Below, piece after piece: positions 1-19,069 of a DNA stretch of 23,281 bases (the first letter of the stretch is position 1; every line of letters starts with the position of its first letter). Under the pieces are notes generated by a model. It was not told where the DNA came from. It saw nothing but the letters and a program-made list of their open reading frames with translations, and did not search any database. Source of the DNA: a virus; the IMG/VR virus record IMGVR_UViG_3300032805_000020, positions 1 through 23,281 of that record; one strand, 5' to 3'. A program made the translations under genes and the position numbers.

Positions 1-220
1 CGGCTGTGGTAGGGAAAGTGTTCAGCGTGCAGGTAGAATTGCCTGCCACGCAAGGATTCTCCGTTGGTCCCTCTGTGCCATTTATATCTTGCAGGTAGGT
101 CCAGCCGGGGAAGAGGCCGGCAGCGCCGCTCACATGCGTCGCCGGCACTGTGGCTACATACTGTGCAGAACAGAAGCAAGCGGCGAGACAAATAAAGAGT
201 ACCGCCAAAAATGGTTTCAT
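1..220 (-). CDS. Third exported protein, N-terminal part (runs off left edge)
   Basis: The minus strand from ATG 220 is open to the window edge, 73 codons. The ATG follows immediately after the TAA of the giant fibre gene (TAAATG). It begins MKPFLAVLFICLAACFCSAQ followed by YVATVPATHVSGAAGLFPGW. This is an export signal, either a Sec signal peptide cleaved at CSA|Q or a lipoprotein signal, since LAAC at residues 12-15 is a perfect lipobox. The next part has a Cys pair (NPCVAGNSTC). The frame is easily missed because its stop lies outside the window. No family is recognised. It continues the run of exported proteins ending the tail cluster. Confidence 0.7.
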   Translation of the reverse strand, partial: MKPFLAVLFICLAACFCSAQYVATVPATHVSGAAGLFPGWTYLQDINGTEGPTENPCVAGNSTCTLNTFPTTA

Positions 221-3200
221 TTAGTTTGCCTGCGCCGCTCCCGGAGTCTTGTGCGGCCACGTCACATCCGCTCCATAAAAATTTATATTTCCTGTTGCCG
301 TATCGGTTGCTCGACCCACCTGCACGATGAACAAACCGCCCGCCACACAGCCACTCATCTGAGTCGACCCGAATTGGACGGTAGACGTTCCATAAAAGCC
401 GTTCGCCACCGCACTGCCCCCGAACGTCACGGTGCCTGAACTCTGCGCCGCGCTGAAGGTAGCATCGTCACTCGTCGTGCCGTTGATTGCCTGAGAGCAG
501 GACACTTTCACCTGGGGAATGACTGTGTGGCCGCTCGTCGTGTCTGAGGCTGAGGCGAAGTAGAAACGAATGTACGGGTTCGAGGCCGTATCCCAATCAA
601 ACGGAATACGCTCGGTAAATTGAGCGAACGTGCTTGATGTGTCGGTGATCGTAATGTAGCCGCCAAGGTTATTCGTCCCTGCCCGACACGTAACCGTACC
701 GCTGGAGCCGATAGACCAGCCTGCGCCTGCGGTTGTGTTATTGCAGTTCGCGGCGGGAACGTATTCTGCAAGCCACATGTCGTTATAGCCAGGATTGGCG
801 CTGCTGCCGTTGGAAGTAAAGACCTGCCCAGAAGAAGAACTCGGGGCTATTCCGCCGGGCGCTGCCGACGTTCCTCCGCTTACTAATACATCGTACTGCG
901 CGATGTTGAACAGCGTCCCGATGTTGGCTGCCGTGATCGACAGATCGGCGTAAGGAATCGCGTTATAGGCATAGCCCGTATCCGTCCAAGTGCAGGTTGT
1001 GGTGACCGTAACGCAGTAGCCCATATGTAGAGTGGTGAATACCGAGGCTGGAAGATTGAACTGATTACTCGCAGTAGCTGCGGTACCTAAAGCACCGACG
1101 AAGTTTCCACTCGCGGGAAAAAGACCAAGGGTGCCAGCCGTGCCGGACTTGCCCAAGGTTGGCGTATAGGTTAGGGCCGGAGTCGCGCCCGCCAGAATTT
1201 CCCCAGCCGATCCCACGACATCAAGATTGGTGGCCGAAGAACTGCCGCCCACGGTCAAGGTGCTGTTCGGCGAAGTGATCGTATCACCACCGCCGCTACT
1301 GCAAGCCGCGCTCCCTAATGTCCACGCACTCCCGGCCGCAACCCAAGTCGCGCATTGACTGGCCGTAGGAGTCAGCGAGGTAGGATAGACTACGAACCTG
1401 GAATCGGCCCCGTTGACGTAGCTGTGGTAGTCCGCGTTCGTGGTATCGAAGTCGATCACGCCCGCTGCCGTGGCGGTGTTGGTCGCATGGCTTGGAACCT
1501 TGAACGCCGCCGTCCCTGTCGCCGCGCTCGCATCGAAGATGCTGGAAGTGCCGCCTAGCAAGGTATGCGTGGAAATTGCCCAATCGGCGCTGTTAGTCGT
1601 CGTCCGATTCGCCGCCGCGGCGTAGAGGATTCCGCCCGCAGAATAGGGGCTGGCGGCCGTCGTCAGATTCGTGTACGGGATGCCGGAATCGGAGGTCGTT
1701 TTGTTGTTGCCCGCTGCGGTAATCACGTCCCCGGAAGTGGTGTAGGGGGAGGCGGCCGTAACCACGTTGGTAGCGAGGATGCTGGAGTCCGCCGGAACGT
1801 TCGCAGCGCCGAAGGAAACTAGATCGCCATTCGTTCCGGCAAAGGACGTGTTATTGATCTTGCTCACCGTGGTCGCGCAGGAACCGGCGGAGTTAGTTGC
1901 GTCTCCGGTCAGCGCCATCAAACCTTCACAGCCCAATCTACCGTTCGCATCCGTGGGCAGGATTTCCGCCGCCCACCAGTTACCTGTCGAACTGGAAGCG
2001 TCCGACCACCAGAATGCCATCTCGGGATTGTGGCCTGAGACATCTCCGACCAGCTTCAGCGCCGTGTTGTTATTTACCGTGCTGGTAGTGGGCGTAGCCG
2101 TGGCGATCACCGAGCCGGAGTTCATCACCCCGAACGGGAAGTTGGTCAACAGGCCCGCAGATCCAGCTTGGCCTACTGAAAAAGCCGTGGACCCCGTATT
2201 ATTTGTCAGATTGACAATCGTTTCCCGGTCGGGAGCCGTCTGCGCATCACTTTGAAGAACGACCGACGAACTGCTCTCCGGGTCCATTGGAATGCCTGAA
2301 ACCGACCAGTAGGGCGCCGTCGCTGCACCCCCACTAGGCTGTGAGACCAGCGTGTAGGGGCTATTCCCGGAGGTCGCTCCAGCCAAGCGCGAGACCGCTC
2401 CAGCCGCGCCGCCATAGATCAGGTCCCCGAGCGTCGTCATCGGATTGGACAGGGTAGCGATCGACAAGCAGGTGAACGTGAACGAGGACTGGGTATAGTT
2501 CAGAGCATTCGACGAGCCGTGACAGTCTGGCACTGTCTCCCAGGACAACGTGCTCGTGGCCGTGCCCACCGGAATTTGGTTTGCTGCTGCGCTGGCTGGG
2601 ATGCTATTGCCGTGGATTTTTCCTACTGTCGTCGTCAACGAGCCGGCAGTGTTCGTCATGTCTCCCGTAAAGGCAGGGACAGCCGCGGTGGGAAGCGTCG
2701 ACGGCAAAGACAAAGTTCCCGACGTGTCGTACAACATTCCGGTGCTCGCAGCCAGCGTGGGCAATGTTTCATTTCGCAGAGCGACAACGGTTGTAGCGTT
2801 TGAACCAGACGTGGTTACGTCGCCCGAGAGTTCGCTGCTCGCAACCGTCTGCCCTCCGCTCGTGGTGCGCGCGATCCCGGTCGCGGGAGTGTGGTAGGTG
2901 AGAATATCTCCATTTACGACTCCACCCGTCAGCGCCGATCCGTTGCCATTATTGACCGCAACCGTGCCGGACGTCGCTCCGGAATTCACGTTGCAGTTCG
3001 AACCCAGAGTGCAAGTCTGCCCGTTGGCCGTGACGGCCGAGTTCGCCAAGGCTGCATTCGGGACCGTTTCGTAGGTCGTCGCATTCGTGCCCGTAACCAC
3101 TGGAACTGTGTTGGTGCTCGGCGAAGTACCGTAGGAAACTCCATTGACATGAACAACCGTGACCGTGTTCGAGCCGGATGTCGTGGCATCGCCACTTAAC

Positions 3201-5206
3201 TCCGATCCTGTGATCGCCTGAGTCCCGCTCGCTGTGCGCGCGATCCCCGCAGCCGGCGTATGGTAGGTGATCACATCGCCTGCGACTACTGTGGAATCAG
3301 CCGGCGTGTTTCCGGCTCCAAAACTTACCAGGTGCCCACTGGTGCCTGCGAACGATGTGTTATTGATTTTGCTCACCGTCGTCGCCAGAGAACCGGCCGT
3401 GTTTGTCATGTCGCCGGTATGAGCCGGCTCGGCAGATGTCGGCAAAGTGCCAGGCAAGGACAACGTACCCGAAGTATCAAAGAGCAAACCGGTCGACGCT
3501 GCCAGCGTAGGCAAACTCAAGCCTTTGAGTCCCACCACCTGGTCGCTGGTATTGATGTCGGCGCCGCTCGCGACGACGTTGACGGCAGTATTGCTGGCGT
3601 TCTTCATCTGCAGGCGCAAGGCCGTAGAATCAGCCCAGATCCAGGATGAACCGGCCGAGCCAGTGGGCGCGGCAGTCTGCGTCATCACCAAGGGCCCAGC
3701 CGAGAGATTCAGGCCGCCCGTGCCACTGTAACCTAATGTTGTCGCGTTATCGGTGAGGAGGGAGGCTCCGATCGTCGCAGTCGCCGTGAATTTCGCCAGG
3801 GCATTGCTTGTGCCTGAACCTCCAATGCTGCCCGTAGCGCAACTGCCGGCCGCCCATAGCGAGCCGTTCGAGACTAAGCAGGTGCCGTTCGAGCCGATAG
3901 CGATTGGGACATTGCTTCCAGCCGAGCCCATCTGAATGAGATCACCTTCGGTTGCCGTTGGAGACAAGGCATCGAAGGCCGGACCTTTGGTCGTTTGTCC
4001 GGTTCCGCCGTGGGCTATGGCCGCGGTGCCTGTAATGTTGCCGGCGTTGCCGGAAGTGTTCAGAGCGAGCGTGTTAGAAAATGTCGGCGTGCCGGTGAAA
4101 GCAATATTGCCGGAGAAAGTCGGTGCTCCGGTGAACGTCCCTGAAAATGCTCCACCATTGTATGTTGTGGCGGTCAGCCCGTTCACGGTAATGCTTGGCG
4201 TGCCGGTCAGGCCGCCGGAGGTCCCTGTCGTATTCAGGGCCAGCGTGTTTGAGAACGTTGGCGTGCCGGTAAAAGCAATATTGCCGCTGAACGTCGGGGA
4301 GCCGGTGAATGTACCGGAGAAAGCAGAACCATTAATTGTCGTGGAACTCAGCGCGTTGACAGTGATGCTTGGGGTCCCGCTCAATCCGCCGGCTGTGCCG
4401 GTTGTGTTCTGGTTCAGCGTGGGAACATCCGCGGCAACGATCGCGCGGAAACTGGGAGCGCCCGGGCTGCCATTCGGGCTAGCGTAAAAAAGATTTTGAG
4501 TTTGACTTGGCCACTTGATGTTCGAAGTCGTCAACGCGCTGATGTCGAAGATGCTGGTCGCGCCGCCTGTGATGGTTGTCGTGCCGTTCGTAGTCCAGCC
4601 CGACGTGCCACCGAGAGCCGCCGAATTATTCCACTGCAGTTGTCCGCTTGAACCGCCAGCAGACGCCGAACCGGTGATGGCCTGACAGTCATACGCGCTG
4701 CCGGTCCAGCCCAGCGCATGGGACGTATCACCGCAAGGCGAGCTCGGATTCGTTCCTCCACCGCCGCTGCCTTTGGAAACCAGCGGGTTTACGGCAGTGT
4801 AGGTAATGGCCACCTGGCCGGCTGTAATCGCCGTAACATGAATGTAGGCATAAGCAAACGCCGTTCCAGTGATCGGCGAAGAGAGAGCCCCATTCGAGTT
4901 GCAGGATTGTGACGAGATAATGCCCCCGGCAGTCCAGTTCACGCCATCGGGAGAGCCATCGACTTGCACCGAGCAGCCTGTGACGGTCGTATTCGTGATC
5001 GCAACCCAGGCAAGGCTGTGCGTTGTGTAGCCGCTGTGAATGTCGACGACATACTGCGAACTCACGCTGGTGGGCGCCGTTGGTTGTTCGCCGGTCCCGC
5101 TTGTGATGTAGGTTTTCGCGATAGCCGAGGGCGGAGGCGATTGAGTTTGCTGTGCCACCAGAGGCCAGGCGAAAGCACACAAGAGCAACAGCCAAAGTTT
5201 TTTCAT
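221..5206 (-). CDS. Giant secreted repeat fibre-like protein with signal peptide
   Basis: The frame is open from 5323, but the best start is the ATG at 5206, with AAGG five bases upstream, giving 1661 residues. It begins MKKLWLLLLCAFAWPLVA|QQ, a clear Sec signal peptide with Lys-Lys, a Leu-rich core and cleavage after residue 18. Residues about 50-145 resemble a discoidin-like beta-sandwich (VQVDGSPDGVNW ... YIHVTAITAGQVAITYTA) with C78 and C102 placed to pair. The long middle is Thr/Ser/Gly-rich and modular. A 58-residue unit (GTPSITVN...FSGTFTG...FTGTPTFSNTLALN) occurs twice in tandem, and a TGDMTNTAGSL-x-TTV-x-KI module recurs three times. The C-terminus (FNLPASVFTTLHMGYCVTVTT ... STVQFGSTQMSGC ... 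INFYGADVTW) is a beta head. It would be a long fibre or adhesin. The stop abuts the next ATG directly. Confidence 0.7.
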   Translation of the reverse strand: MKKLWLLLLCAFAWPLVAQQTQSPPPSAIAKTYITSGTGEQPTAPTSVSSQYVVDIHSGYTTHSLAWVAITNTTVTGCSVQVDGSPDGVNWTAGGIISSQSCNSNGALSSPITGTAFAYAYIHVTAITAGQVAITYTAVNPLVSKGSGGGGTNPSSPCGDTSHALGWTGSAYDCQAITGSASAGGSSGQLQWNNSAALGGTSGWTTNGTTTITGGATSIFDISALTTSNIKWPSQTQNLFYASPNGSPGAPSFRAIVAADVPTLNQNTTGTAGGLSGTPSITVNALSSTTINGSAFSGTFTGSPTFSGNIAFTGTPTFSNTLALNTTGTSGGLTGTPSITVNGLTATTYNGGAFSGTFTGAPTFSGNIAFTGTPTFSNTLALNTSGNAGNITGTAAIAHGGTGQTTKGPAFDALSPTATEGDLIQMGSAGSNVPIAIGSNGTCLVSNGSLWAAGSCATGSIGGSGTSNALAKFTATATIGASLLTDNATTLGYSGTGGLNLSAGPLVMTQTAAPTGSAGSSWIWADSTALRLQMKNASNTAVNVVASGADINTSDQVVGLKGLSLPTLAASTGLLFDTSGTLSLPGTLPTSAEPAHTGDMTNTAGSLATTVSKINNTSFAGTSGHLVSFGAGNTPADSTVVAGDVITYHTPAAGIARTASGTQAITGSELSGDATTSGSNTVTVVHVNGVSYGTSPSTNTVPVVTGTNATTYETVPNAALANSAVTANGQTCTLGSNCNVNSGATSGTVAVNNGNGSALTGGVVNGDILTYHTPATGIARTTSGGQTVASSELSGDVTTSGSNATTVVALRNETLPTLAASTGMLYDTSGTLSLPSTLPTAAVPAFTGDMTNTAGSLTTTVGKIHGNSIPASAAANQIPVGTATSTLSWETVPDCHGSSNALNYTQSSFTFTCLSIATLSNPMTTLGDLIYGGAAGAVSRLAGATSGNSPYTLVSQPSGGAATAPYWSVSGIPMDPESSSSVVLQSDAQTAPDRETIVNLTNNTGSTAFSVGQAGSAGLLTNFPFGVMNSGSVIATATPTTSTVNNNTALKLVGDVSGHNPEMAFWWSDASSSTGNWWAAEILPTDANGRLGCEGLMALTGDATNSAGSCATTVSKINNTSFAGTNGDLVSFGAANVPADSSILATNVVTAASPYTTSGDVITAAGNNKTTSDSGIPYTNLTTAASPYSAGGILYAAAANRTTTNSADWAISTHTLLGGTSSIFDASAATGTAAFKVPSHATNTATAAGVIDFDTTNADYHSYVNGADSRFVVYPTSLTPTASQCATWVAAGSAWTLGSAACSSGGGDTITSPNSTLTVGGSSSATNLDVVGSAGEILAGATPALTYTPTLGKSGTAGTLGLFPASGNFVGALGTAATASNQFNLPASVFTTLHMGYCVTVTTTCTWTDTGYAYNAIPYADLSITAANIGTLFNIAQYDVLVSGGTSAAPGGIAPSSSSGQVFTSNGSSANPGYNDMWLAEYVPAANCNNTTAGAGWSIGSSGTVTCRAGTNNLGGYITITDTSSTFAQFTERIPFDWDTASNPYIRFYFASASDTTSGHTVIPQVKVSCSQAINGTTSDDATFSAAQSSGTVTFGGSAVANGFYGTSTVQFGSTQMSGCVAGGLFIVQVGRATDTATGNINFYGADVTWPHKTPGAAQAN
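4061..4408 (-). repeat. Two tandem 174-bp units inside the giant fibre gene
   Basis: Two adjacent copies of 174 bases (58 codons) code nearly identical protein, with the second starting near 4235. Anchor words such as GGCGTGCCGGT and AAAGCAATATTGCCG recur at the same offset. The limits are approximate. Confidence 0.75.
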
Positions 5207-5238
5207 TGGCACCTTCTTTGATTGATTGTTGGAAATTG

Positions 5239-8200
5239 TTAATCGGCGAAGATCGTCCAGTTCGTTCCATTGCATCTGACGCCGACATGGTTTGAGCCGC
5301 CGCCTACTACTGTACTGCCCCAAGTCGTCGCTGTGGCATCCGTGACCGTAAACTTCCCGCCCTCAAGCGCTGAGGTACAGGCAGGCAGATTCGCAACATA
5401 CGGCGCCAAAGTATCCTGAATCGGGCCGGAAGATGAGAATTGCATGTCTCCCGCAGCGAACTTGGCGAAGGTCAGGGTCTCGCCGTTGTTCAGACCGAAC
5501 ATGCCCGGCGAGCCGCTCGTGATGCTAGAGTCGGTCGCGGTCGCTTCCAGAACTCCGTTTTGAAAGGCGCTGATTGTAGTGCCTACAACCTGGCAGGTAA
5601 CCACGTCGCCGGGATTCACTACAATTGCGGCAGAAGTTGCGAGTCCAGTAGCGCTTCCCGCTACGTACTTGCCGATCGTGATCACAGGACTTCCCGTGTC
5701 GGCTTCCTCACAGAAGTATCCGGTTTTGACGCTGCTGGACATCCGGACTCCTGCGGCCGGGAATGACCCCACGATGCTGCCGATAGTTATCGTGGCGTAC
5801 TGATTGACCGTAAAGCTCGATCCGGTGTAGGCCGCGAAGGAGTATGTGGCATCGTTCGTAATCGTGGCCTGGTTGCTGGCAATGGTCCATGTGCCTGCGA
5901 CCTGCGTCCAGTTGGAGCCGATGGAACCGTTGGCACGATGGAAGGTATCTATGACTTGCGTGCCAGACGGGCTGAGGGGACCGCATCCGATGACGCATGT
6001 CCCAAGGATGCTCACGTTGCCTTCAAAGACTTGATTGTCGCGGGAAGTCTCAGTCGTGGGGGTGATTTGCTTTATCCAAGACGAACCGTCAAAGGGCGTA
6101 GGCGAGCCCGCATACAGATTAAACCCGACTCCGCTCGTCAAAGCCATGTCCGCGGTAGTGAGCGTCCCGCCGTTCGTGTCCGTGCCGATCGCGTTGTCTG
6201 CGGCATCCATTTTCGGGCGATGCGATGGGTCGGCCATGGTCTTGAACGGATTCGAGTCAAGGACAGTAATGATGGCCGTAGGCTTGATGATGGTGCCGTA
6301 TGTGGGCTCAAAATTTACCCGGCCTTTGTAGATTGTCGATGGCCCGCCTGCCAATGCGTTGAACTGATAAATGGTGCCAAGACCGCCCTGATTGGAGTTG
6401 CTGAGTGGGGCTTGTCCGCCGGTTACGATGCAGCCGGGAGAGCCACTGACAATCGACTTGGCGATGATGCTCACTTGTGGGTAGGCTGTGCAGTGCGTTG
6501 CTGAACTGAGAACGTCAGTGCTTTCCTGTCCCCCACTGCCAATGGCGTTCTCAGGCCAACCAAGTAATGAGGGGAATAACGTTGGCGCGGTCTGCACGGT
6601 GTAGGAAGATAGCGAAACCGGATAAGTAACGGAGAGCGTGCAGACCAAGTGAGCGCACTGAGACAGGCCCGTTTGGATCGCATAGTTCCCTGTGCCGTAG
6701 GGAGCATAAGGCGTTTCGGGAAAATCCGAGGTAGCGATGCGCGGGACCGCAAGCACGTCGTAGGTGATCGTGTCGCCCGGAGTAGTTGCGGCGATGCGCG
6801 GCCATCCAATCGTAAACGTTGCTGTAGGTAAGCCGCTGCCGAACTTGACTGGCACGCTGTACGTGCCGAGCGTCGTATCGTTCGCCACCACCCAGAAATC
6901 GTAAGTCGTGCTGCCCGAGGTCGAGCCGAATACGGGAGCCTGCCCGATGATGGTGCTGCCGACAAAGCCAGCTTCGTGCTGCCAGTTGCCGCTGACCAGG
7001 TCCATGCCGCCAACATTGCAACTTGCCCCGATGCTGCCACTCGTAAAGCATGCCTCCGTCGCGCCGCCGAGGGCACTCCACTGCGGATTCCAGCAGGTTG
7101 AACCCCCTCCAGTCTCCGTATATACGTTGCGCGTGGTTACGGTGCCGGAGCCTCCACGCAGATTCCCCGCCATAATCTCCCACTCACTTGCGCCCTGAAT
7201 CACGGAGTCGGAGATCGAAAGCGTGTTACCAGAGAGCCAGGTCACGCCGTTGCCTTCGCACTCCGGGTCGGTATTAAGATTCTTGATCGAACCTACGGCC
7301 GCACCCGATCCCCATGCGGTTCCGGAGAACGGCCCCGGCGCGTAGATGATGTTACCCACGTAGGCGTCAAGCGCAGTCACGCCGCTGGAGTTGTCAGCAT
7401 ATACTCCAAGCGTGTTCAGGCCATCCAGATTGAACTTTTCGTCGTCAATTACTGTGATGCCATTCGTGAGGCGTCCCGTCAAGTAGGAACCCTGCTGGAT
7501 GAGATTGTCCCGAAACGTGATGTTGTTGCCATTGTCCAAGACTCCAGTATGTAGGTAGGCATTCGCCCCCGGAGTCGATGCAGAAGCCGTGCCAGCGGGG
7601 CATCCGGAAGCCGTTGTCGTGTAAGTCCAGTTCGAGGCCGAGGATGTGACAACCTGATGCGGCCCCCAAAAAAACGTGGCGTCAGTTTTCTGCACGTCCA
7701 CCCAACTGCCCACTGCGGGATTGAGCGTGCTCGTGATCGTGGCTGTGGTGCCACTGCATGCCGTGGCCGTGATCGGTGCGCCAGGATAGGTCAACGTCGA
7801 TCCCAGCCGGCAGTTGGAAAGCGTGACGCTGGTCAGCGAGCCCGTGTCTAAGGGGAAGTTGAACCCGAAGTCGGTATTGTCGACCGCGATTTGCGCTCCA
7901 TGGCAATCGATTTCGCCGGGACCGAATTGAATGTTCACAGGCGCTAGAAACTCATAGGCATTAGCTGTGTCGCTCGGAGGATTCGATGGGAGGAAATCTA
8001 CGACCCAATTTCCTCTGGTCTGATCGTCCGTTCCGTTAGTTTCGGCATCCATGAGCGCTTCTTGGGCACCGATCGAAGCTGAGCCGATTATGTATGGGCT
8101 GGTGTGATTGTAAGCTGGAGTAAAGCTAATTGTTCCGGAGGCGTTGCCTGGAACACAGTCGCCAAGTCCTGTCATCTGGACTCTTTCGGGCGTGCCGCCT

Positions 8201-9156
8201 GTAAAGATGTAAATCCAATTAAGCGGATACTTGAGCGGATTCGTGGAGTTGTAGCCTGTGGGGTCGTTGCCGTAGACGCCGCTAGGGCATGGGCTTAGTG
8301 TGATCACCGCAGGCGTCCCCGCTGTGAGTGTTCCAATGATGGACTGCTGCCAGTTGTAGCCGGAGGTCACGTACCGAACGCGGTTGAATTGATTCGCGCC
8401 GAAGTCAGTTCCAACGGTCTGCTGAATAAATTGACTGATACCTGAACCGGGAGTCGGAGTGATGCCCGCGCCGGAAGCGCTCGCTGTGATTGTATCGGTT
8501 CCGGTTCCATTGTCGACGATGCTGATGTTCGATCCTGCTGTCAGATTCAGTTTGACCTGAGAGCCGTTATTCGTCCCGTTTGTTTGCAGCGTAATGTTAT
8601 TGGCTGGAGCGCAGTCCGCTCGTCCGTTCGTGTTGTAGCCGGCAACCAGGCCGCTCGAACAATCTCCCGCATAGATCGCGCCCAAACTTGTCAGCGTCGG
8701 CGGCGGTATGGGGACAATCGGAATCCCATTCTGCTGCGGAAAATACTGATCGAAATTGCAACTGCCCGATGTGCACCAAAAGTTTGTCGTCGCGGTTTGC
8801 ACGCACTGATAACCGCTCGTCGGAGTCCCGCCAAGCAGGACCTGATTGAATCCGTTTTTGATTGTCGTCGCAAAACAAACGTTCAGGGGATTCGTCAGCG
8901 CGGAATTGGCCAGTAGGCACGGCTGCACGATCGCACCATTCAGAATCGAGCACACCGTGGGCGATGTGATTGTGGATCCGCCACCGCCGGCCTGATAAGA
9001 CAGAGGATTGCCGCTTGAATCGACTGGAGCAAACACGATGACGCCCGAGGCGAGCAGATGGCTGCCGCTGTCATGGATGTTCGCGCTGGCGACGGTGACG
9101 TACTGTGCGAAGGCAGGCAGGGTCAACGCCAAGCACAAAGCTAAAGATCTCAGCAT
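5239..9156 (-). CDS. Large secreted fibre-like beta-helix protein with signal peptide
   Basis: This 1305-residue protein begins MLRSLALCLALTLPAFA|QYV, a clear Sec signal peptide: one Arg, a Leu/Ala core, and an AFA cleavage motif after residue 17. Residues about 18-185 form a domain with eight Cys between positions 69 and 182, suggesting disulfides made outside the cytoplasm. Residues about 400-700 have repetitive strand patterns (FGPGEIDCHGAQIAVDNTDF, NGNNITFRDNLIQQGSYLTG, GNTLSISDSVIQGASEW) like right-handed beta-helix tailspikes or lyases; no catalytic site can be assigned. A concanavalin-like domain (IDTFHRANGSIGSNWTQVAG and onward) lies near residues 1085-1235, and the last 65 residues end in the VTDATATTWGSTVVGGG...CNGTNW motif common at fibre C-termini. 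Three bases separate it from the previous stop, and no ribosome site is obvious. Confidence 0.7.
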   Translation of the reverse strand: MLRSLALCLALTLPAFAQYVTVASANIHDSGSHLLASGVIVFAPVDSSGNPLSYQAGGGGSTITSPTVCSILNGAIVQPCLLANSALTNPLNVCFATTIKNGFNQVLLGGTPTSGYQCVQTATTNFWCTSGSCNFDQYFPQQNGIPIVPIPPPTLTSLGAIYAGDCSSGLVAGYNTNGRADCAPANNITLQTNGTNNGSQVKLNLTAGSNISIVDNGTGTDTITASASGAGITPTPGSGISQFIQQTVGTDFGANQFNRVRYVTSGYNWQQSIIGTLTAGTPAVITLSPCPSGVYGNDPTGYNSTNPLKYPLNWIYIFTGGTPERVQMTGLGDCVPGNASGTISFTPAYNHTSPYIIGSASIGAQEALMDAETNGTDDQTRGNWVVDFLPSNPPSDTANAYEFLAPVNIQFGPGEIDCHGAQIAVDNTDFGFNFPLDTGSLTSVTLSNCRLGSTLTYPGAPITATACSGTTATITSTLNPAVGSWVDVQKTDATFFWGPHQVVTSSASNWTYTTTASGCPAGTASASTPGANAYLHTGVLDNGNNITFRDNLIQQGSYLTGRLTNGITVIDDEKFNLDGLNTLGVYADNSSGVTALDAYVGNIIYAPGPFSGTAWGSGAAVGSIKNLNTDPECEGNGVTWLSGNTLSISDSVIQGASEWEIMAGNLRGGSGTVTTRNVYTETGGGSTCWNPQWSALGGATEACFTSGSIGASCNVGGMDLVSGNWQHEAGFVGSTIIGQAPVFGSTSGSTTYDFWVVANDTTLGTYSVPVKFGSGLPTATFTIGWPRIAATTPGDTITYDVLAVPRIATSDFPETPYAPYGTGNYAIQTGLSQCAHLVCTLSVTYPVSLSSYTVQTAPTLFPSLLGWPENAIGSGGQESTDVLSSATHCTAYPQVSIIAKSIVSGSPGCIVTGGQAPLSNSNQGGLGTIYQFNALAGGPSTIYKGRVNFEPTYGTIIKPTAIITVLDSNPFKTMADPSHRPKMDAADNAIGTDTNGGTLTTADMALTSGVGFNLYAGSPTPFDGSSWIKQITPTTETSRDNQVFEGNVSILGTCVIGCGPLSPSGTQVIDTFHRANGSIGSNWTQVAGTWTIASNQATITNDATYSFAAYTGSSFTVNQYATITIGSIVGSFPAAGVRMSSSVKTGYFCEEADTGSPVITIGKYVAGSATGLATSAAIVVNPGDVVTCQVVGTTISAFQNGVLEATATDSSITSGSPGMFGLNNGETLTFAKFAAGDMQFSSSGPIQDTLAPYVANLPACTSALEGGKFTVTDATATTWGSTVVGGGSNHVGVRCNGTNWTIFAD

Positions 9157-9159
9157 ATT

Positions 9160-9891
9160 TTAAGAATTCACCGTAGCGTAAGCGAACAAGCCAGTTAGGC
9201 TTCCGCTGCTGAACTGACTGACGGTAAGAACAAGATTTCCACCAGAAGATGTGCCGCTTTTTGAAGTGTTGCCCGGAGACTGAGCCAGAAGATTGATTGA
9301 GTTTGAAGATGTCCCGGCTCTGGACACATAGAAAAACGTGTAAGTGCTGCCGGAGATATTTGAGAGCACGAGGTCGAAAGCATAAAAGGAGCTCGCTCCC
9401 AGACCAGAGACGCCATCAATGATTGTGCCGCCCAGGTAGAACTCCGCCGAAGCGCTCACGGCGCCGACCGAACAGACAAAGTGGACGACGCTGCCCACTT
9501 TCAGAATGGAGGTTGGGATATTGAACGTATAAAGGATCGCGCCTGTCGTGCTGGTGGATCCTCCTGTAGCACTGTATTTGTAGGTGCTCGTGTTTGTGGG
9601 TTGCGCAAAGGCGGACTGGAAAATAGCTGTAAGGTTGGCGAGCGCGGTCGAAGGCGAAGCAGATCCATCATTCGGACTCAAGCCCAAGCCAACGAGAAAA
9701 TTGGCGAGCGCGGTCACAAACGTTGTGACCTGGTAAAACAGTTTGTTGTGGGTGATGGATGGGGCAAGCACGCCGCTGCCGCCCACGCCGCTGGGGATAC
9801 CGTTGGCGCGCAACGTGTCGGCATTATAGTTCGTGTCACTCTCCATGTTGTTCGCTGGAGGGTTCCACTGCTTAAAATTCGTGCTGGCCAT
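9160..9891 (-). CDS. Tail fibre protein with anchor-type N-terminus
   Basis: The product has 243 residues from MASTNFKQWNPPANN. The ATG at 9891 has AAGGAG five bases upstream and is better than the TTG three bases before it. The N-terminal block FKQWNP...ESDTNYNADTLRANGIPSGV, then NKLFYQVTTFVTALANFLVG, is the common docking region of myophage fibres and collar proteins. The C-terminal half is a beta-rich domain (GAILYTFNIPTSILKVGSVV, FYLGGTIIDG, STYTFFYVSRAG, GGNLVLTVSQF) similar in style to receptor-binding or trimeric jelly-roll heads. Unlike the three genes after it, it has no signal peptide, so it is probably a normal virion component assembled in the cytoplasm. Confidence 0.65.
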   Translation of the reverse strand: MASTNFKQWNPPANNMESDTNYNADTLRANGIPSGVGGSGVLAPSITHNKLFYQVTTFVTALANFLVGLGLSPNDGSASPSTALANLTAIFQSAFAQPTNTSTYKYSATGGSTSTTGAILYTFNIPTSILKVGSVVHFVCSVGAVSASAEFYLGGTIIDGVSGLGASSFYAFDLVLSNISGSTYTFFYVSRAGTSSNSINLLAQSPGNTSKSGTSSGGNLVLTVSQFSSGSLTGLFAYATVNS

Positions 9892-9900
9892 CAATTCTCC

Positions 9901-10533
9901 TTAAACGTAGAAACCGGCATCGTAGCCGGCAATGTACGCGGTATCGACGTCGTAGCCAAACATCGGCAGTTTCGCGAACACATAGGTGTACATGACGCCA
10001 TCGGGCCGAGGAACGATCAAATCGTTCAGGATCATGTCCTGAATAATGGAGGTAAAGTTGCCGGCCAGGGAAATCACAGCCGTCATGTTCTGATTGTCCT
10101 GAATGATGATCGTGCCACCAGGGAACAGCGTCTGCCAGATCGGATAAACGCTCGCAATTAATCCGTCCCATTGGTTCTGGGCGACTTTAGCCTTGAGCAA
10201 AATGCGATAGGTGGAATCATTCAGGATCGGAGAAACTCCACCGGCCGGCTGAAAAGCAAGCACGCGGCTGGCTCCGACAATCTGGCCAATGATGTCCAAC
10301 TGCGAGCCGATCGCCTCGTCGATATCGAACTCATAGGACCACTGCGAGAGCAGTGCGGCCGCATCGTGGAACGGAATCAGCAGCGTTTGCAGCCAGGCTT
10401 TTTGGTTGGGCGCATTCTGGTACTGCGACGACAGCAGCGACATGTAATAGTCGACTGACGGAACCTGCCCGGAAGGCCGCGGGCCTCCGCCATAGCCAGC
10501 CCATCCGTAGCCGCCCTGACCGTAGCCTGGCAT
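9901..10533 (-). CDS. DUF2612-type baseplate/tail protein
   Basis: This 210-residue protein has a Gly/Tyr-rich N-terminus (MPGYGQGGYGWAGYGGGPRP), unusual for the family and perhaps flexible. The core SYEFDIDEAIGSQLDIIGQI followed by VGASR, DSTYRILLKAKVAQNQWDGLI, YPIWQTLFPGGTIIIQDNQNM and the C-terminal GYDVDTAYIAGYDAGFYV match DUF2612 proteins, which follow baseplate J in many myophages and replace tail protein I as link between wedge and fibres. It starts by a one-base overlap (TAATG) with the preceding stop, and ends ten bases before the next coding region. Confidence 0.8.
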   Translation of the reverse strand: MPGYGQGGYGWAGYGGGPRPSGQVPSVDYYMSLLSSQYQNAPNQKAWLQTLLIPFHDAAALLSQWSYEFDIDEAIGSQLDIIGQIVGASRVLAFQPAGGVSPILNDSTYRILLKAKVAQNQWDGLIASVYPIWQTLFPGGTIIIQDNQNMTAVISLAGNFTSIIQDMILNDLIVPRPDGVMYTYVFAKLPMFGYDVDTAYIAGYDAGFYV

Positions 10534-11012
10534 TATTGAACAGCCTCAGCTCTGGCGTGCAATGCAAACTGCATCGCGGTCGCTCCCGACGAAGCGTAGC
10601 TGCTCGTCGAAATCGAAACCGTCGTCCCGCCCGCAACGCTGATCATCGCCGAGGCCTGCGCGAACGTGGTTAGCAAGTTTCCGGCATTCGTTGCCGTGAG
10701 AGTCAGCGTTTGCACTGTGGCATTATCGGCATCGGTCCAACTGATCACGATGCTCGGAAGCGTGGAAGAACTTGTCGCGGCCGTTGTAACGATGATGTAG
10801 CCCGAGATCTTGAAGCGGCCGCTCTGCGCTGGGCTGAACCAGGGCGTCGACGAAATGTTTGCCGACTGAGCCGTCTCGTCGTAGAGGGACTGTAAAACGG
10901 GGAGATTGCCGTACAGCGTGTCGAGCAGGCTGAAGTTATAGTTCAGCAGCGTATCCCAATTCTGTGTTCCATTGGACGGGATATTCAAACCGAGATTGGG
11001 AGTAACTGGCAT
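10533..11012 (-). CDS. Small tail fibre / appendage-anchor protein
   Basis: This 159-residue protein begins MPVTPNLGLNIPSNGTQNW followed by DTLLNYNFSLLDTLYG. That short motif recurs at the N-terminus of phage fibre and appendage proteins and probably docks them to the baseplate. The remainder is a Thr/Ser/Ala-rich beta domain (SGRFKISGYIIVTTAATSSS, IVISWTDADN, TLTLTATNAG, VSISTSSYASSGATAMQFALHARAEAV) like small jelly-roll decoration or fibre head domains. GAGG lies eight bases before the ATG. Its stop overlaps the next start as TAATG. No specific ligand can be proposed. Confidence 0.55.
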   Translation of the reverse strand: MPVTPNLGLNIPSNGTQNWDTLLNYNFSLLDTLYGNLPVLQSLYDETAQSANISSTPWFSPAQSGRFKISGYIIVTTAATSSSTLPSIVISWTDADNATVQTLTLTATNAGNLLTTFAQASAMISVAGGTTVSISTSSYASSGATAMQFALHARAEAVQ

Positions 11013-11022
11013 TCAGGAAACC

Positions 11023-12207
11023 TCAGACGAAACTGATGACGATGTTACCGAGAGCGCTCTGCGCCGCTTCGTCGAATGTGATCGAGATGTCGCTTGTGCC
11101 TGATGGTGACGGCGATGTGCCGATTCCAGAACTGGCGGTTTCAATGATGAATGCGGGATTGTCGAGTGTCAGATTGACCGCCATTGCAGCAGCCATCGTG
11201 GAAATGAAGCTGACGTTTTGGCCAATGGACAAGCCCTGTAAGTAAGCGAGCACGGCATTCTGGATTAAGGCCGAGAACGAATTGTTCCAACTGGAGAGTT
11301 GGTGAACTCCAAGCTTTACATAGACCGTAACGTAGGTCGGAGTATCGAAACTGATCGCATTGCTGAGACCAGTAATGGGGTCGATTACCGTTTCGCTGGT
11401 GCTGCCATAAGTGCCACAGCCGATACTTTTGTTCGTATAAATTGCCGTGGCAACTGCGAGCGGATCCCCATTTTCCACGACGCACTGCACGGAGTGCGCC
11501 GGCGTGCCGTTGCCATTCGTCGCGCCCGTATAGTTTTCGTCAATATTGACGCGCGTCACGCCCGAGACGGCCTCGAGCGCCGCCTTCATGCCGGCAATGA
11601 GCGCAATCGACGGCAACTCTGTGCTAATGGCCTGCCGCGAGCGGAGTTGCGAATCAGGCTCCGCAGCCTCGCCAAGATTCGGAAGGTTCGAACCATTGGT
11701 GACGCTTGTCCAGCCCGCCTGCGTTGTGGCAATGCCGATGATCTGACTGGCCGCAACCGTAATCGGGCCAGGCTGTTGAGCGGTCGCCGTGACAGTTGTG
11801 CCGCCACCAGCGATCGTGACGGATGCCGGCAGGTTCCAGAGATTATTGTTGAGATCGTAGACGACGCCGTTCGTGATGACGGTTCCAGTGACGCCGTTCA
11901 CCGTGACCAGGCATGTCGAGTACGAGGCGGGCTTGCGAGTCAGCCCGTTTAACTTGACGAGAATATCGAGTGCCGGGCCGATGGCGAAACTCGGGCCCAT
12001 ATTGGTGTAGACCAACTGGACCGCATTCATCACGTCGGCCGCAAACAGCGCAACGATCGACATCTCCTGGAGGTCCGCCGAATCGTTGCCCAGGTAAGAT
12101 TGCTGGCCGTAAATGTTGAGAAAACTGGATTGATAAAAATCGAGGATGTCGGTGTACGAGGGAATGCTCAACCCGGTCGCGCTGATGCTCGGAGCTTGAT
12201 AGGACAT
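11023..12207 (-). CDS. Baseplate J-like wedge protein
   Basis: This 394-residue protein has the typical J/gp6-like layout. A helical N-terminus follows the pattern of IPSYTDILDFYQSSFLNIYG and SADLQEMSIVALFAADVM. A central strand pair (TVNGVTGTVITNGVVYDLNNNLWNLPASVTIAGGG, then TATAQQPGPITVAASQIIGI) is the classic J-domain beta segment. After LPNLGEAAEPDSQLRSRQ, the E-x-D-x-x-x-R-x-R signature, come MKAALEAVSGVTRVNIDENYT and the C-terminal domain. It dimerises into the triangular wedge around the hub and moves on contraction. A second half rich in Ser/Thr/Gly ends at a TGA ten bases before the next start. Confidence 0.88.
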   Translation of the reverse strand: MSYQAPSISATGLSIPSYTDILDFYQSSFLNIYGQQSYLGNDSADLQEMSIVALFAADVMNAVQLVYTNMGPSFAIGPALDILVKLNGLTRKPASYSTCLVTVNGVTGTVITNGVVYDLNNNLWNLPASVTIAGGGTTVTATAQQPGPITVAASQIIGIATTQAGWTSVTNGSNLPNLGEAAEPDSQLRSRQAISTELPSIALIAGMKAALEAVSGVTRVNIDENYTGATNGNGTPAHSVQCVVENGDPLAVATAIYTNKSIGCGTYGSTSETVIDPITGLSNAISFDTPTYVTVYVKLGVHQLSSWNNSFSALIQNAVLAYLQGLSIGQNVSFISTMAAAMAVNLTLDNPAFIIETASSGIGTSPSPSGTSDISITFDEAAQSALGNIVISFV

Positions 12208-12210
12208 GAA

Positions 12211-12600
12211 TTATGAAGGCAGCGCTTGCGACGGCGGAGTTGGAATATTGGTTACGGTGGTCAGTCCAAACTGGGTTTGGACGGTAGCGGTAAAAGAAAA
12301 TGTGAGAGTGCTGGAATCGAAGCTTGAATCAAGACTCACGATGCCCGTGACATAGGGCGTTCCTAAAATGCGCTGCGTGAGCAGTGTTGTGGCCTGTTGA
12401 ACGTTCGGCGCCACGCCAAGCAGATCCTGAAACACCGGCGTGCCGTCTGCTAGGTCGGCCCACCACTCGCCGAGAAACAAATTCAGGCGCGTCAGAATGG
12501 CTTGCGTGACGGCCTGCAGATCGGGAAGAAAATTCTGCTGGCCCTGCCCGCGCAGCGGATCGTAATTCGGACCTAAGTTGCGGTAGAGGATTGTCGGCAT
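12211..12600 (-). CDS. gp25-like baseplate wedge / sheath initiator protein
   Basis: This 129-residue protein has the size and order of gp25/gpW wedge proteins: a helical N-terminal half (LPDLQAVTQAILTRLNLFLGEWWADLADGTPVFQDLLG) in which the GEWW-x-D-x-x-x-G pattern is characteristic of the phage wedge proteins before baseplate J. This is followed by TTLLTQRILGTPYVTGIVSLD and two beta strands (TLTFSFTATVQTQFG) as in the sheath-like handshake domain. It would start sheath assembly on the baseplate. Its start overlaps the spike stop by one base (TAATG), and only three bases separate it from the J gene. Confidence 0.78.
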   Translation of the reverse strand: MPTILYRNLGPNYDPLRGQGQQNFLPDLQAVTQAILTRLNLFLGEWWADLADGTPVFQDLLGVAPNVQQATTLLTQRILGTPYVTGIVSLDSSFDSSTLTFSFTATVQTQFGLTTVTNIPTPPSQALPS

Positions 12601-13343
12601 TACGCAGCAACCGTGTCGGTCGTGCCATTCGAACTGGTTAACGTGGTTGTCGGAGCACTGGTAAAACCGCCTTGGGGATCGGGATGGATGTGATTATTGA
12701 AAAGCGTTTCCAGGTCCTCAAGAAATACCAGATGCTTGGTAGGGCTTTGGCCAAGTTTGACGGTCGGCGCATTGACGCTGACCGAGCCGCTGGAAACCGT
12801 GATGTTGATGGCAGAAGGCGTAATCTCGATTACTCGTGTGCCGTCGTCGCTCCGAAGTTGAAGCCCGGTTGTCGAGTAAGAAGAGAGCACGCGCGGTTGC
12901 GACCAGATTCCGAAGTCGGCGATCGCGTCCGAGAGCGAATGTCGACGTCGCGCCATCGGATTATTTCCGCTGCCTCCGGACTGCCACCAGGAATCGATAG
13001 GCTGATCCTGAAAGACCAGCATGCACTCGTCTCCCGCCTGAATTGGGAACGTGATCGTATAGCCGCCCGCGCGCGGCATCTTGATCGGGACATCCCGGAT
13101 GACGGGCAGATCGATCGGTGTTGGCACGGAATTCACCAGCATGTTTTCGCGAATCGCCGGCTGGACGGCCACAACCTGCTTTGTGGCGTCGAAAGCCAAA
13201 CCGGTAATCGGATCATTCACAACGATGGCCGGCGCGGCTCCGTGGAGCTCGCAAAGCAACTGCCAGCGCAAGCGCAGCCACTGCTGGCTGTCAAGATTCA
13301 AACGCTGCGTAAGATCTAGAAAACTGCTGGCTGCTGCCGACAA
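12600..13343 (-). CDS. Membrane-puncturing spike, gp138-type
   Basis: This 247-residue protein starts at a TTG (13343) with GGAGG four bases upstream; no in-frame ATG gives a better start. The N-terminal OB-fold region APAIVVNDPITGLAFDA, VVAVQPAIRENML, LPVIRDVPIKMPRAGG, TFPIQAGDECMLVFQDQPIDSWWQSG and RRRHSLSDAIADFG matches the gp138 N-terminal domain of phage phi92-type spikes closely. Then comes a repetitive beta region (GTRVIEITPSAINITVSSGSVSVNAPTVKLG) expected to form a trimeric beta-helix. Near the C-terminus, NNHIHP contains H218-x-H220, which in related spikes binds an iron ion at the tip. It caps the hub and pierces the outer membrane, implying a Gram-negative target. The stop TAA overlaps the next ATG by one base. 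Confidence 0.88.
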   Translation of the reverse strand: MSAAASSFLDLTQRLNLDSQQWLRLRWQLLCELHGAAPAIVVNDPITGLAFDATKQVVAVQPAIRENMLVNSVPTPIDLPVIRDVPIKMPRAGGYTITFPIQAGDECMLVFQDQPIDSWWQSGGSGNNPMARRRHSLSDAIADFGIWSQPRVLSSYSTTGLQLRSDDGTRVIEITPSAINITVSSGSVSVNAPTVKLGQSPTKHLVFLEDLETLFNNHIHPDPQGGFTSAPTTTLTSSNGTTDTVAA

Positions 13344-13501
13344 TCCGCCTCCATTAAATGGACGTCTACTATTTTGAGCGAGAGGCTAGTAACCTTTCAG
13401 TTGTCAAGGCAAGCCTCGTTTTGGCATGTTCAGCTTTGCCATGACAAGTTAGGCTACGGCTAGGAGAGCAGGGCGTGTTTTTAATCGCACGCCTTGCTTT
13501 T
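13344..13501. other. Gene-free structured interval between hub and spike
   Basis: This is the only sizeable non-coding stretch in the baseplate operon, 158 bases. It holds the terminator above, and an imperfect hairpin in which TTGTCA-A-GGCAA (13401-13412) pairs with TTGCC-A-TGACAA (13436-13447), one A-A mismatch inside. It also holds the second copy of the 15-base palindromic word. A tiny minus-strand frame MAKLNMPKRGLP lies inside, without a convincing ribosome site. No sigma70-type promoter is convincing on either strand: the TTGACA on the minus strand lacks a good -10 at normal spacing. It may be a small plus-strand RNA or the scar of a lost insertion. Confidence 0.4.
13350..13364. repeat. 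15-bp palindrome-bearing word, copy 2
   Basis: The plus strand reads TCCATTAAATGGACG, identical over 15 bases to the minus strand at 19719-19733. The copy lies just upstream of the spike start, and the minus-strand end of the palindrome runs into the spike ribosome site. Confidence 0.6.
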
Positions 13502-13503
13502 TT
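13468..13503 (+). terminator. Intrinsic terminator on the plus strand
   Basis: The arms GCAGGGCGTG (13468-13477) and CACGCCTTGC (13488-13497) pair over ten positions with a single G-T wobble, enclose a ten-base loop, and are followed by six T and ATT. This is a textbook rho-independent terminator for plus-strand transcription. On the minus strand the hairpin follows the hub stop but has no T run after it, so it should not stop the tail transcript. Confidence 0.7.
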
Positions 13504-14575
13504 ATTGAGCGGCAGAAGTCCCAGGCGTACCGGCAGAGCCGTACCCAAGACTGGCATTGCTAACCACGCCATCTAGCAAACTCACCGATCGAGTCCAACC
13601 TGTTATTTCTGTGTACCAAGCATTGCCTCGTGTGTCGCCGACAAAGCGAGCCCCGATGACAACATATTGGCCACTCTGATCGAGCAATCGCGGGTTTTCG
13701 CCGTAAACAGATTTCATAAATGTGATCAGACTGTTGTTGATCTGCACCATCGTTAACGGCTTTTTTACTTGCACCCGCGGGTCCAGGAGTACTCGGAAAC
13801 TGACTCCATACATCGTTTGCACCGGCGTGCCGATGATCGACTGCGTTCCAAGATCCTGCGTCGACGGCGGCGGACCGGCCGCACCTAAGACAACAGGCGG
13901 GCTGAACACGATCGCAGTCGGCGAGATGCTGACATCCTCTTGCACGCTGCCCATGTTCAAGCCGTTCTGGTCGATCCACCACTGCATATTGTTGCTCTCG
14001 GCGATGTCGTCGAGATGGCGATCGAGATTTCCGAACACGACTTGCGACCTGGGGAGCGTCGTGGTCGAAAGATTCTTTGAGATCACTCCGATGGGCACAT
14101 GCGCCAGCGCCGCAATTTGCTGCACGATTTGCTGCTGCGTCTGAAACGCGGGAATCGATGCGCCGATGCTCGGGCTCTTGTAAGGCGGCAACCCGAGCAC
14201 GCACCAGAGCCGCAACTTCAAATCTGTAACGTTCTCGCGTTCGAGAAACGCCTGGAAGATTGGGCCAGACCAGATTGTGTTGTAGTTGCCGTTCTGGTAG
14301 CCCGCGGCGAGCGTCACAACTGCACCTTGCGCCGCTTCCTTCAACACCGGATCAATCAGCGTCGCGTCCGCGTTCCAGATGATGATCTCGGCGGTCCAGT
14401 AATGCTGAAAGGCTACTTGCTGGACATCGAACGTGACTTTCAGTGCCTGGGGATCGTACGTCGGGTCCGCATTTGGATCAGGGATGGTAAACAGGACGTT
14501 GCTGCCGCTTAGCTTGATCTGGACTTGCCACTTGCGGCCGAACAGCGGATTCAGTTGAGAGACCGCGCTGCTCAT
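13502..14575 (-). CDS. Baseplate hub protein
   Basis: The product has 357 residues from MSSAVSQLNPLFGRKW; this ATG overlaps the plug stop (ATGA), while an in-frame ATG seven codons upstream has no support. The N-terminal part (RKWQVQIKLSG, IPDPNADPTYDPQALKVTFD, YWTAEIIIWNADATLI) and the later AAGYQNGNYNTIWSGPIFQAF, VTDLKLRLWCVLGLPPY and QQIVQQIAALAHVPIG have the pattern of trimeric T4 gp27/gpD-type hub proteins that carry the spike. The C-terminal GARFVGDTRGNAWYTEITGWTRS is also typical. The stop codon TAA lies within the T run of a plus-strand terminator hairpin. Confidence is high for a hub role because plug precedes and spike follows. Confidence 0.75.
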   Translation of the reverse strand: MSSAVSQLNPLFGRKWQVQIKLSGSNVLFTIPDPNADPTYDPQALKVTFDVQQVAFQHYWTAEIIIWNADATLIDPVLKEAAQGAVVTLAAGYQNGNYNTIWSGPIFQAFLERENVTDLKLRLWCVLGLPPYKSPSIGASIPAFQTQQQIVQQIAALAHVPIGVISKNLSTTTLPRSQVVFGNLDRHLDDIAESNNMQWWIDQNGLNMGSVQEDVSISPTAIVFSPPVVLGAAGPPPSTQDLGTQSIIGTPVQTMYGVSFRVLLDPRVQVKKPLTMVQINNSLITFMKSVYGENPRLLDQSGQYVVIGARFVGDTRGNAWYTEITGWTRSVSLLDGVVSNASLGYGSAGTPGTSAAQ

Positions 14576-14922
14576 GACGTCTGGCTCGAATACCAAACGA
14601 GGTCGAAGTCGCTGCCGAGATTCGTGTTGTCGGGATAGTCCTCATCTATCCCGCTGGCATTCAAGATGCTCGCCCCGCCGAGCCCGAGATAGGCGAACTG
14701 CGCAAGCAGGTTTCCCGCCGGCGCTTGCCCGCCAATGAGCGGAACTGAATCGAGCAGCACGTTGCCGGACGAATCGGAAATCGTCATGACCCAATAGCCA
14801 GCAATCTCGTTGTAATGCAAATAGAGTTGCCGCGTGACCGACTGGCCATCCACTTCCAGCGCAACCTGAATCGTCTGGTTGGGAAGATTATTTAGAGGAA
14901 GAAGTTGAGCGGCTGTGCTCAT
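14572..14922 (-). CDS. Baseplate plug-like protein (Pam3 gp18-like)
   Basis: This small protein of 116 residues starts at MSTAAQLLPLNNLPNQ; the ATG at 14922 overlaps the previous stop as ATGA, which fixes it over an in-frame ATG five codons earlier. The strands QTIQVALEVDGQSVTRQLYLHYN, YWVMTISDSSGNVLLDSVPLIGG, and the final NLLAQFAYLGLGG match the layout of the cyanophage Pam3 gp18 plug domain found between tube-initiator and hub genes in minimal myophages. It probably closes or stabilises the hub interior. Its own stop again overlaps the hub start as ATGA, so three baseplate genes in a row are coupled in this way. Confidence 0.65.
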   Translation of the reverse strand: MSTAAQLLPLNNLPNQTIQVALEVDGQSVTRQLYLHYNEIAGYWVMTISDSSGNVLLDSVPLIGGQAPAGNLLAQFAYLGLGGASILNASGIDEDYPDNTNLGSDFDLVWYSSQTS

Positions 14923-15671
14923 GGCGACGTAGACCACTGCCCGGAGCTATTCTCGTTCCCTTGCAGGTTCGACGGGACCGGTTGCACCGAAGAGGCTCCA
15001 GGATTGCTTGTGTTCGACTGGTTGGTGCGCGCGCTGAGCGTCTGACTCGATACCGAGCCCATGAAGATCTGCTCGAAGGTAATGCTGGCGCGACGCAAGG
15101 AATGAAACGATGTGTTGTCGCGCATCACCTGAATGGCCGTGATGACCATGTTCGGGTAGGTGCTCAACTGCGTCGTCAGCGTGATCGGCACGCGCGCCTG
15201 TTGCAAATTGCGAAGCGTGATGTAAGCTCCGGCCGATTTTGAATTGTAGCCCGAGTACTGCCCCGAGACGTACGAATCCATCGAATCGGAGATCCCGATT
15301 TCGAGCACAATGCGCGGTGGAATCAGAAACGTGTGATCGGAAATCGCCGCCCCGTTTTGGACCGGGTGGCGCGTCGCTTCCAGGCGCGAGTCGTGCATCT
15401 CGCGCAGGATGGCATCAAAAAAATAGTTTGTCGTGTTGAATGACGTGTTGCTGTTGTTCGTCGAGGGCTGCGGCAGCGTCTGCGAAGCGCCAGTGCTGAC
15501 CCCTTCGACGGTCTGAGTTGGGAACGTAATCGTCGAAGAAACGTTCGTGGTCGTCGGCAGGATCGCGCTGATCATGACGCCGCCGGGCGTGCCGATCGCC
15601 CACTGCAACGGGCGGTAGCCATTCCCGATAATGGCTCCCAGAACCGGAATCGACGAAAAAAAAGAACCCAT
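14919..15671 (-). CDS. Dit-like / tail-tube-associated baseplate protein
   Basis: This 250-residue protein lies directly behind the tape measure (TAA then ATG). The central part reads DAILREMHDSRLEATRHPVQNGAAISDHTFLIPPRIVLEIGIS, the pattern of the Dit-like N-terminal domain in myophage tube-initiator proteins (helix, then HPVQNG, DH, P-x-x-V-x-L-x-I-G). This is followed by ITLTTQLSTYPNMVITAIQVMRD and SLRRASITFEQIFMG, the paired strands of a tube-like beta barrel. Both ends are Ser/Asn/Thr-rich. It would form the ring joining tube to hub. A run of eight T on the minus strand (codons 3-6) follows the start and could be slippage-prone. The stop overlaps the next start as ATGA. Confidence 0.7.
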   Translation of the reverse strand: MGSFFSSIPVLGAIIGNGYRPLQWAIGTPGGVMISAILPTTTNVSSTITFPTQTVEGVSTGASQTLPQPSTNNSNTSFNTTNYFFDAILREMHDSRLEATRHPVQNGAAISDHTFLIPPRIVLEIGISDSMDSYVSGQYSGYNSKSAGAYITLRNLQQARVPITLTTQLSTYPNMVITAIQVMRDNTSFHSLRRASITFEQIFMGSVSSQTLSARTNQSNTSNPGASSVQPVPSNLQGNENSSGQWSTSP

Positions 15672-19031: not shown

Positions 19032-19038
19032 ACTTGAT

Positions 19039-19043
19039 CCTCC
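19039..19043 (-). promoter_or_regulatory. Strong ribosome binding site of the tube gene
   Basis: GGAGG on the minus strand stands seven bases before the tube ATG. It is retained although the neighbouring endonuclease gene has been placed just upstream on the other strand, so the insertion spared tube translation. Confidence 0.7.
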
Positions 19044-19069
19044 ATTTGCATTGTGCTAGAGTCCCGATT

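Follow-up and report, generated by a model that had tools for sequence, protein, structure and literature searches.

Predicted Export of Tail Fibres Encoded at the Baseplate End of a Phage Tail Operon

Introduction

Fibres of tailed phages are taken to fold and attach to the particle in the cytoplasm, and tail fibres of the T4 type are not known to carry a signal peptide. What, then, does it mean if the long fibre genes of a tail operon begin with apparent export signals? This question is raised by the virus record IMGVR_UViG_3300032805_000020, the whole of which (23,281 bases) is the window analysed here. The window is a fragment of a contractile-tailed phage, with sheath, tube, tape-measure, baseplate, and then fibre genes running toward low coordinates on its minus strand. 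A first-pass annotation had proposed that the products of this tail operon are divided between cytoplasm and envelope, a proposal supported here by conserved signal segments and by the number, parity and spacing of cysteines. The reading favoured, with a probability of about 0.6, is that the genes encode receptor-binding fibres that leave the cytoplasm through Sec, lose their signal, acquire disulfide bonds in the periplasm, and are fitted to particles at lysis or afterwards. Export of the fibres is well supported by features of the predicted proteins, and their attachment to the virion is likely from structural modelling.

Export Signals at the Fibre End

Three consecutive genes are concerned. 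Gene 1 (5239–9156, minus strand) encodes a predicted long tail fibre of 1305 residues, starting at an ATG at 9156 and separated by 3 bases from the stop codon of the fibre gene before it. Its N-terminus reads MLRSLALCLALTLPAFA|QY, with the signal at residues 1–17 (about 9106–9156), and the mature part consists of an N-domain (residues 18–182) with eight conserved cysteines followed by a variable body with 20 more. Gene 2 (221–5206, minus strand) encodes a fibre-like long repeat protein of 1661 residues. Its longest open reading frame starts at a TTG at 5323, within gene 1, and was rejected as the gene start; the ATG at 5206, behind AAGAAGG, is the credible start and yields a signal of 18 residues, MKKLWLLLLCAFAWPLVA|QQ. 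Gene 3 (2–220, minus strand), predicted to encode a third exported protein, is present only as its 5′ part and is truncated at the window edge after 73 residues. Its ATG at 220 overlaps the gene 2 stop (TAAATG), and its N-terminus is MKPFLAVLFICLAACFCSA|QY.

Signals were called with a homemade rule that specifies a basic n-region, an 8-residue hydrophobic core, and a small-x-small cleavage site. The rule passes all three fibre-end proteins versus 0 of the 16 other window genes. Among random N-termini matched in composition, 4.7% pass, or 0.25% when A|Q is required at the cleavage site. The n-region, h-region, and small-x-small site are all present in genes 1 and 2 and in relatives. Thus, the first-pass claims that these two proteins begin with an export signal ending in A|Q, and that the baseplate genes and a 243-residue fibre lack one, hold under the rule. 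For gene 3 the export signal stands, while a clean A|Q cleavage site is not secured: the signal holds a lipobox-like LAAC and is classed by the rule as lipoprotein type, so that the site of cleavage is uncertain and a lipoprotein reading is possible.

The same pattern extends to other phages. A set of 78 loci was collected by aligning baseplate J proteins; counts are approximate, because the contigs are metagenomic, genes were called mechanically, and sequences are related to one another. Among proteins of at least 400 residues, a strict rule found a signal in 31 of 63 encoded downstream versus 4 of 76 upstream (Fisher p = 1.7e-9), and none of the 63 J proteins had one. By eye, several of the downstream negatives are clear signals that the strict rule missed, and the four upstream positives appear fibre-like. 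Glutamine occupies position +1 after 36 of 47 signals (proteins of at least 200 residues). As a separate observation, short signal-bearing proteins occur far upstream of the baseplate genes at L036:622 and L042:743.

Cysteine Content and Pairing

Proteins bearing signals are rich in cysteine. The median content of their mature parts is 2.0%, versus 0.52% for upstream proteins, 0.75% for J proteins, and 1.1% for other downstream proteins. Mature gene 1 has 28 cysteines and mature gene 2 has 20, the latter in ten close pairs, and the eight described earlier for gene 1 are confirmed at residues 69, 80, 94, 118, 128, 133, 166, and 182. With similar signal-bearing proteins merged, 40 of the 43 clusters that hold two or more cysteines have an even count (p = 1.5e-9); for signal-less proteins with at least four, 76 counts are even and 54 odd. 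Where the signal itself holds an odd number, the mature part is nonetheless even in 10 of 11 cases, so the signal lies outside the folded unit, as expected if it is removed. Spacing follows suit, with a median gap in signal-bearing proteins of 16 residues within pairs versus 56 between them, a contrast that is weaker in controls (25 versus 33, and 19 versus 35).

A comparison within one domain type is also available. The TPN-GLxVPxxGxxNW domain directly follows the signal in 11 proteins, which contain 6–34 cysteines. It occurs without a signal in two others, namely one in L085 (two cysteines) and a small protein of the window (10533–11012, minus strand; TPN-LGLNIPSNGTQNWD domain), which has none. 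Given this richness in cysteine, the even counts, and the close pairing, oxidation of the mature proteins outside the cytoplasm is very probable. This agrees with the first-pass proposal that the paired cysteines fit an oxidising compartment.

Two further arrangements of fibre domains were seen in the survey. L077:8151-8855, which lacks a signal, adjoins L077:8859-10934, which has one, and both carry a PTTPxVGTNGGxxGxxxxWTGxN domain. L046:12107-12799 is a TPNLGLN-domain protein with a lipoprotein-like signal (LLVVTTGC), which hints that a fibre domain can also be tethered to the membrane.

The Gene 1 N-Domain and Attachment to the Virion

A search of IMG/VR with the gene 1 N-domain, to which survey loci were added, gave 20 copies on 18 distinct uncultivated-virus contigs including the window, mostly at ~40–55% domain identity. 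By eye, a signal-like segment precedes all 20, of which the rule misses one and calls another lipoprotein-type; the signal sequences vary and the pattern is retained. Homologues starting past the signal, which the first-pass annotation had named as evidence that would overturn its proposal, number zero of 20 for this domain. All eight cysteines are kept in a relative with 49% overall identity, and they are largely retained among contractile-tailed relatives. In L012 and L013, which have another tail type, some pairs are gone and the remaining cysteines still appear paired by eye. Similarity to gene 1 is limited to about residues 12–257, i.e., a conserved N-domain is followed by differing bodies. 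As for gene 2, its repeat region matches a fibre in L004 (E = 1.9e-11), and its N-domain has a single weak match, signal-less, on the short contig L026. Sequence searches of Pfam, PHROGs, NCBIfam, and PDB returned no credible family for gene 1 or gene 2, and gene 1 had no match among GenBank phages, nor did its N-domain among plasmids, which were searched with that domain only.

The mature N-domain was modelled with AlphaFold2 (AF2) from 14 sequences, giving a mean predicted local distance difference test score (pLDDT) of 74. Its best VIA match is chain 8kec_b, a tail fibre of A-1(L) (Z 10.2, root-mean-square deviation 2.2 over 96 residues, chain residues 1–106), followed by a tail-tip chain of mycobacteriophage Bxb1 (Z 7.5). 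In a BFVD search of the model, phage minor tail proteins rank first. From its length and domain limits, chain 8kec_b would be gp33, the short tail fibre of this Anabaena myophage (PDB 8KEC), residues 2–110 of which ring the baseplate wedges according to the A-1(L) paper. In both phages the fibre genes lie at the baseplate end, and the predicted fold of the mature gene 1 N-domain is like the beta-ring region that anchors gp33 to the baseplate. In contrast, the A-1(L) domain starts at about residue 2 without a signal, and identity is only ~15%. That the gene 1 N-domain models like a baseplate-anchoring beta-ring speaks for genuine fibres of the virion and against adhesins of a lysogen. For the gene 1 body, single-sequence AF2 gave a pLDDT of 31 and no readable fold.

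In the window and many relatives, the fibre-end genes come after those for J, a DUF2612 protein, and a small fibre. In the window, these are the J-like baseplate wedge protein that anchored the survey (11023–12207), the DUF2612 baseplate/fibre-connector protein (9901–10533; no cysteine), and the 243-residue fibre-end protein (9160–9891; one cysteine), all on the minus strand and without signals. The last belongs to a conserved family that directly precedes the first exported fibre in relatives too, and it is likely an adaptor.

Tunturi Phages and the Probable Host

Cultured counterparts exist in Tunturi 1 and 2 (PP887698, PP885685), short-tailed podophages of the acidobacterium Tunturiibacter psychrotolerans. 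Their authors report lytic cycles, and neither phage has an annotated integrase. Tunturi 1 has signals on gp12, gp13, gp14, gp16, and gp17, the four long ones having 20, 10, 20, and 32 mature cysteines, and Tunturi 2 counterparts align to these genes over their full extent. Like the window, gp12–gp17 form a run of tail genes with signals mostly ending in A|Q and with many cysteines, even in number in the long proteins. Tunturi 1 gp13 also shares an LNLNVPxxGTQNYD domain with window 10533–11012, a domain that sits right behind the signal peptide in gp13 and on other contigs. Unlike the window phage, Tunturi 1 and 2 have short tails, and the gene 1 N-domain was not found in them. The Tunturi authors make no mention of signal peptides in their text. 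As a side observation, gp17 of the two phages (L021:19474-23028 and L023:9903-13745) is near-identical except for a block at about residues 300–500, which may be a host-range-variable segment.

The fibre domains shared with Tunturi 1, together with the A|Q pattern, suggest that the window host is probably an acidobacterium. No gene 1 relative was present in genome_contigs, so the prophage route to a host assignment failed. A glutamine at the mature N-terminus also recalls the Q-rule for signal peptidase I substrates of Bacteroidetes, which was specific to that phylum among the groups tested, with Acidobacteriota not mentioned (PMC5837995). The Q-rule case differs in host group, that of Tunturi 1 being acidobacterial. 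A Bacteroidetes host had been considered from A|Q and was dropped, as the window GC content is 56–59% and the acidobacterial Tunturi 1 also has A|Q.

Proposed Assembly Route

The proposed route has four steps. In the first, which is well supported, the proteins of gene 1, gene 2, and probably gene 3 would be made as precursors with Sec signals, exported, and cut by signal peptidase I at A|Q. In the second, also well supported, the proteins would take up their fold in the periplasm, an oxidising compartment, with disulfides linking adjacent cysteines, as the number, parity and spacing of cysteines suggest. In the third, likely for gene 1 on the basis of the model, the freed N-domain, with its transthyretin-like fold resembling a beta-ring, would anchor the fibre to the particle, and the variable C-terminal body would bind the host surface. 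In the fourth, an inference, capsid, tail, and baseplate would be made in the cytoplasm without these fibres, and the fibres would be added once lysis opens the inner membrane, or immediately outside the cell. On the particle, the signal-less small fibre and the DUF2612 protein would provide the docking platform.

Late joining is plausible because otherwise complete fibreless particles of T4 can receive fibres (PMC3004832). T4-type fibres, assembled in the cytoplasm, resemble those described here in their long repetitive or collagen-containing bodies, N-terminal attachment, and variable distal parts. Unlike the fibres here, they fold with dedicated phage chaperones (PMC3004832).

Several points weigh against this route. 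All signal calls derive from the homemade rule rather than SignalP, and evidence of export is at the level of sequence for every member. Upstream and J controls with at least six cysteines also lean even (20:6; downstream signal-less proteins, 14:17), which leaves parity, taken by itself, short of clean proof. Foldseek gave no significant match in PDB, with E no better than 0.4 for pilins, dioxygenases, and transthyretins, and the 8kec match depends on a VIA alignment of a 14-sequence model with the mean pLDDT given above; the anchor likeness is therefore a lead of moderate strength. Late attachment is conjectural, and the acidobacterial host of the window phage is a probable one. Finally, tail genes of Tunturi 3, which shares its host strain with Tunturi 1, and of Tunturi 4 carry no signal, and the same holds for those fibre genes of Tunturi 5 that were seen in its annotation. 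Export is therefore not a host requirement; it is a trait of certain phages.

Alternative Explanations

The strongest competitor, though unlikely, holds that the proteins are exported and disulfide-bonded yet never part of the virion. The infected cell would release free receptor-binding proteins that cover or remove receptors and surface polysaccharide, so that superinfection is blocked and progeny do not stick to debris. The evidence for export fits this equally well, some of the bodies match beta-helix or carbohydrate-binding proteins, and the small signal-less fibre proteins of the window could serve as the receptor-binding proteins of the virion. A decoy would, however, have no need of a first mature domain that models like a baseplate anchor, as that of gene 1 does. 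Moreover, the long fibre- or spike-like genes that follow the gp11 tail gene of Tunturi 1 all bear signals, leaving that phage with no obvious other adhesin.

Two further possibilities are improbable. One is that the hydrophobic N-terminus is a membrane or baseplate anchor, or the relic of a captured host gene for an exported protein, and that the fibres remain cytoplasmic. Such a view can draw on the sequence-based nature of the signal calls and on the LAAC of gene 3, with which not all calls are clean. It is hard to square with an n/h/c segment in 20 of 20 N-domain copies at ~40–55% identity, since a relic would not be preserved in such form. The content, parity and spacing of cysteines, the signal's own excluded, likewise fit an oxidising compartment, and the signal-less form of the TPN-GLxVPxxGxxNW domain has almost no cysteine. 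The other possibility is that signals and cysteines are real, with disulfides forming in the medium after lysis and export of most copies being incidental. Cytoplasmic maturation of fibres in other phages, and the attachment of T4 fibres to fibreless particles, would suit this account, which leaves the conserved cleavable signals unexplained.

Least probable is lysogenic conversion, in which prophage surface proteins at the end of the tail operon serve the lysogen as adhesins: the repeats are extracytoplasmic and adhesin-like, and ~20% of Acidobacteriota-linked viral contigs are reported to be proviruses (Demina et al., PMC11924767), but the genes are tightly packed in a late tail operon (a gap of 3 bases, and stop codons that overlap start codons), adjoin lysis-like genes in some relatives, and are not confined to temperate phages, the lytic cycles of Tunturi 1 and 2 and their lack of an annotated integrase disfavouring a role in lysogens only. 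Among the three meanings offered by the first-pass annotation, the addition of fibres outside the cytoplasm thus fits best, given the anchor-like N-domain, variable bodies, and lytic cultured phages; adhesins displayed by a lysogen are not needed and misfit the Tunturi pair, and neither are secreted proteins carried as cargo.

Significance

In the open-access literature, signal peptides on phage tail fibres were found nowhere described, the matches being limited to endolysin and spanin cases and passing mentions; novelty is provisional, because subscription papers lay largely outside the literature searched. The broader proposal is a two-compartment particle, in which a cytoplasmic head, tail, and baseplate are joined at lysis by Sec-exported, cleaved, disulfide-bonded periplasmic fibres. 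The trait would occur in soil-bacterial phages whose tails are contractile, short, or, apparently, long and non-contractile. The odds of this proposal holding are about even, and it would constitute a new assembly route. If true, virion assembly gains a periplasmic branch, infection relies on the Sec pathway, signal peptidase, and disulfide-forming machinery of the host, and the cysteine richness of the fibre proteins is explained. It would also offer a way to spot receptor-binding proteins in uncultivated soil viruses, as long, signal-bearing genes with even cysteine counts behind the baseplate. Tunturi 1 and its laboratory host, the soil strain Tunturiibacter psychrotolerans X5P2, make the idea testable at present.

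Other Genes of the Window

The remaining baseplate genes (wedge, spike, hub, plug, and Dit-like) occupy 12211–15671 on the minus strand and lack signals. At 15672–17234 (minus) lies the gene for a tape-measure-like protein, one part of which matches a glucosaminidase domain (PF01832, E = 6.5e-10). A phosphoadenosine phosphosulfate reductase-like gene lies within the tail operon at 17968–18540 (minus; PHROG 424, E = 2.5e-18), and such genes are reported from Acidobacteriota-linked viral contigs too (PMC11924767). Between the tube and sheath genes, an HNH endonuclease, probably a homing endonuclease, is encoded on the opposite strand (19034–19729, plus). Adjoining the sheath gene at 21729–23030 (minus) is a gene for a 433-residue protein without a family match, composed of ~19-residue SDTxxFSETLSR repeats.

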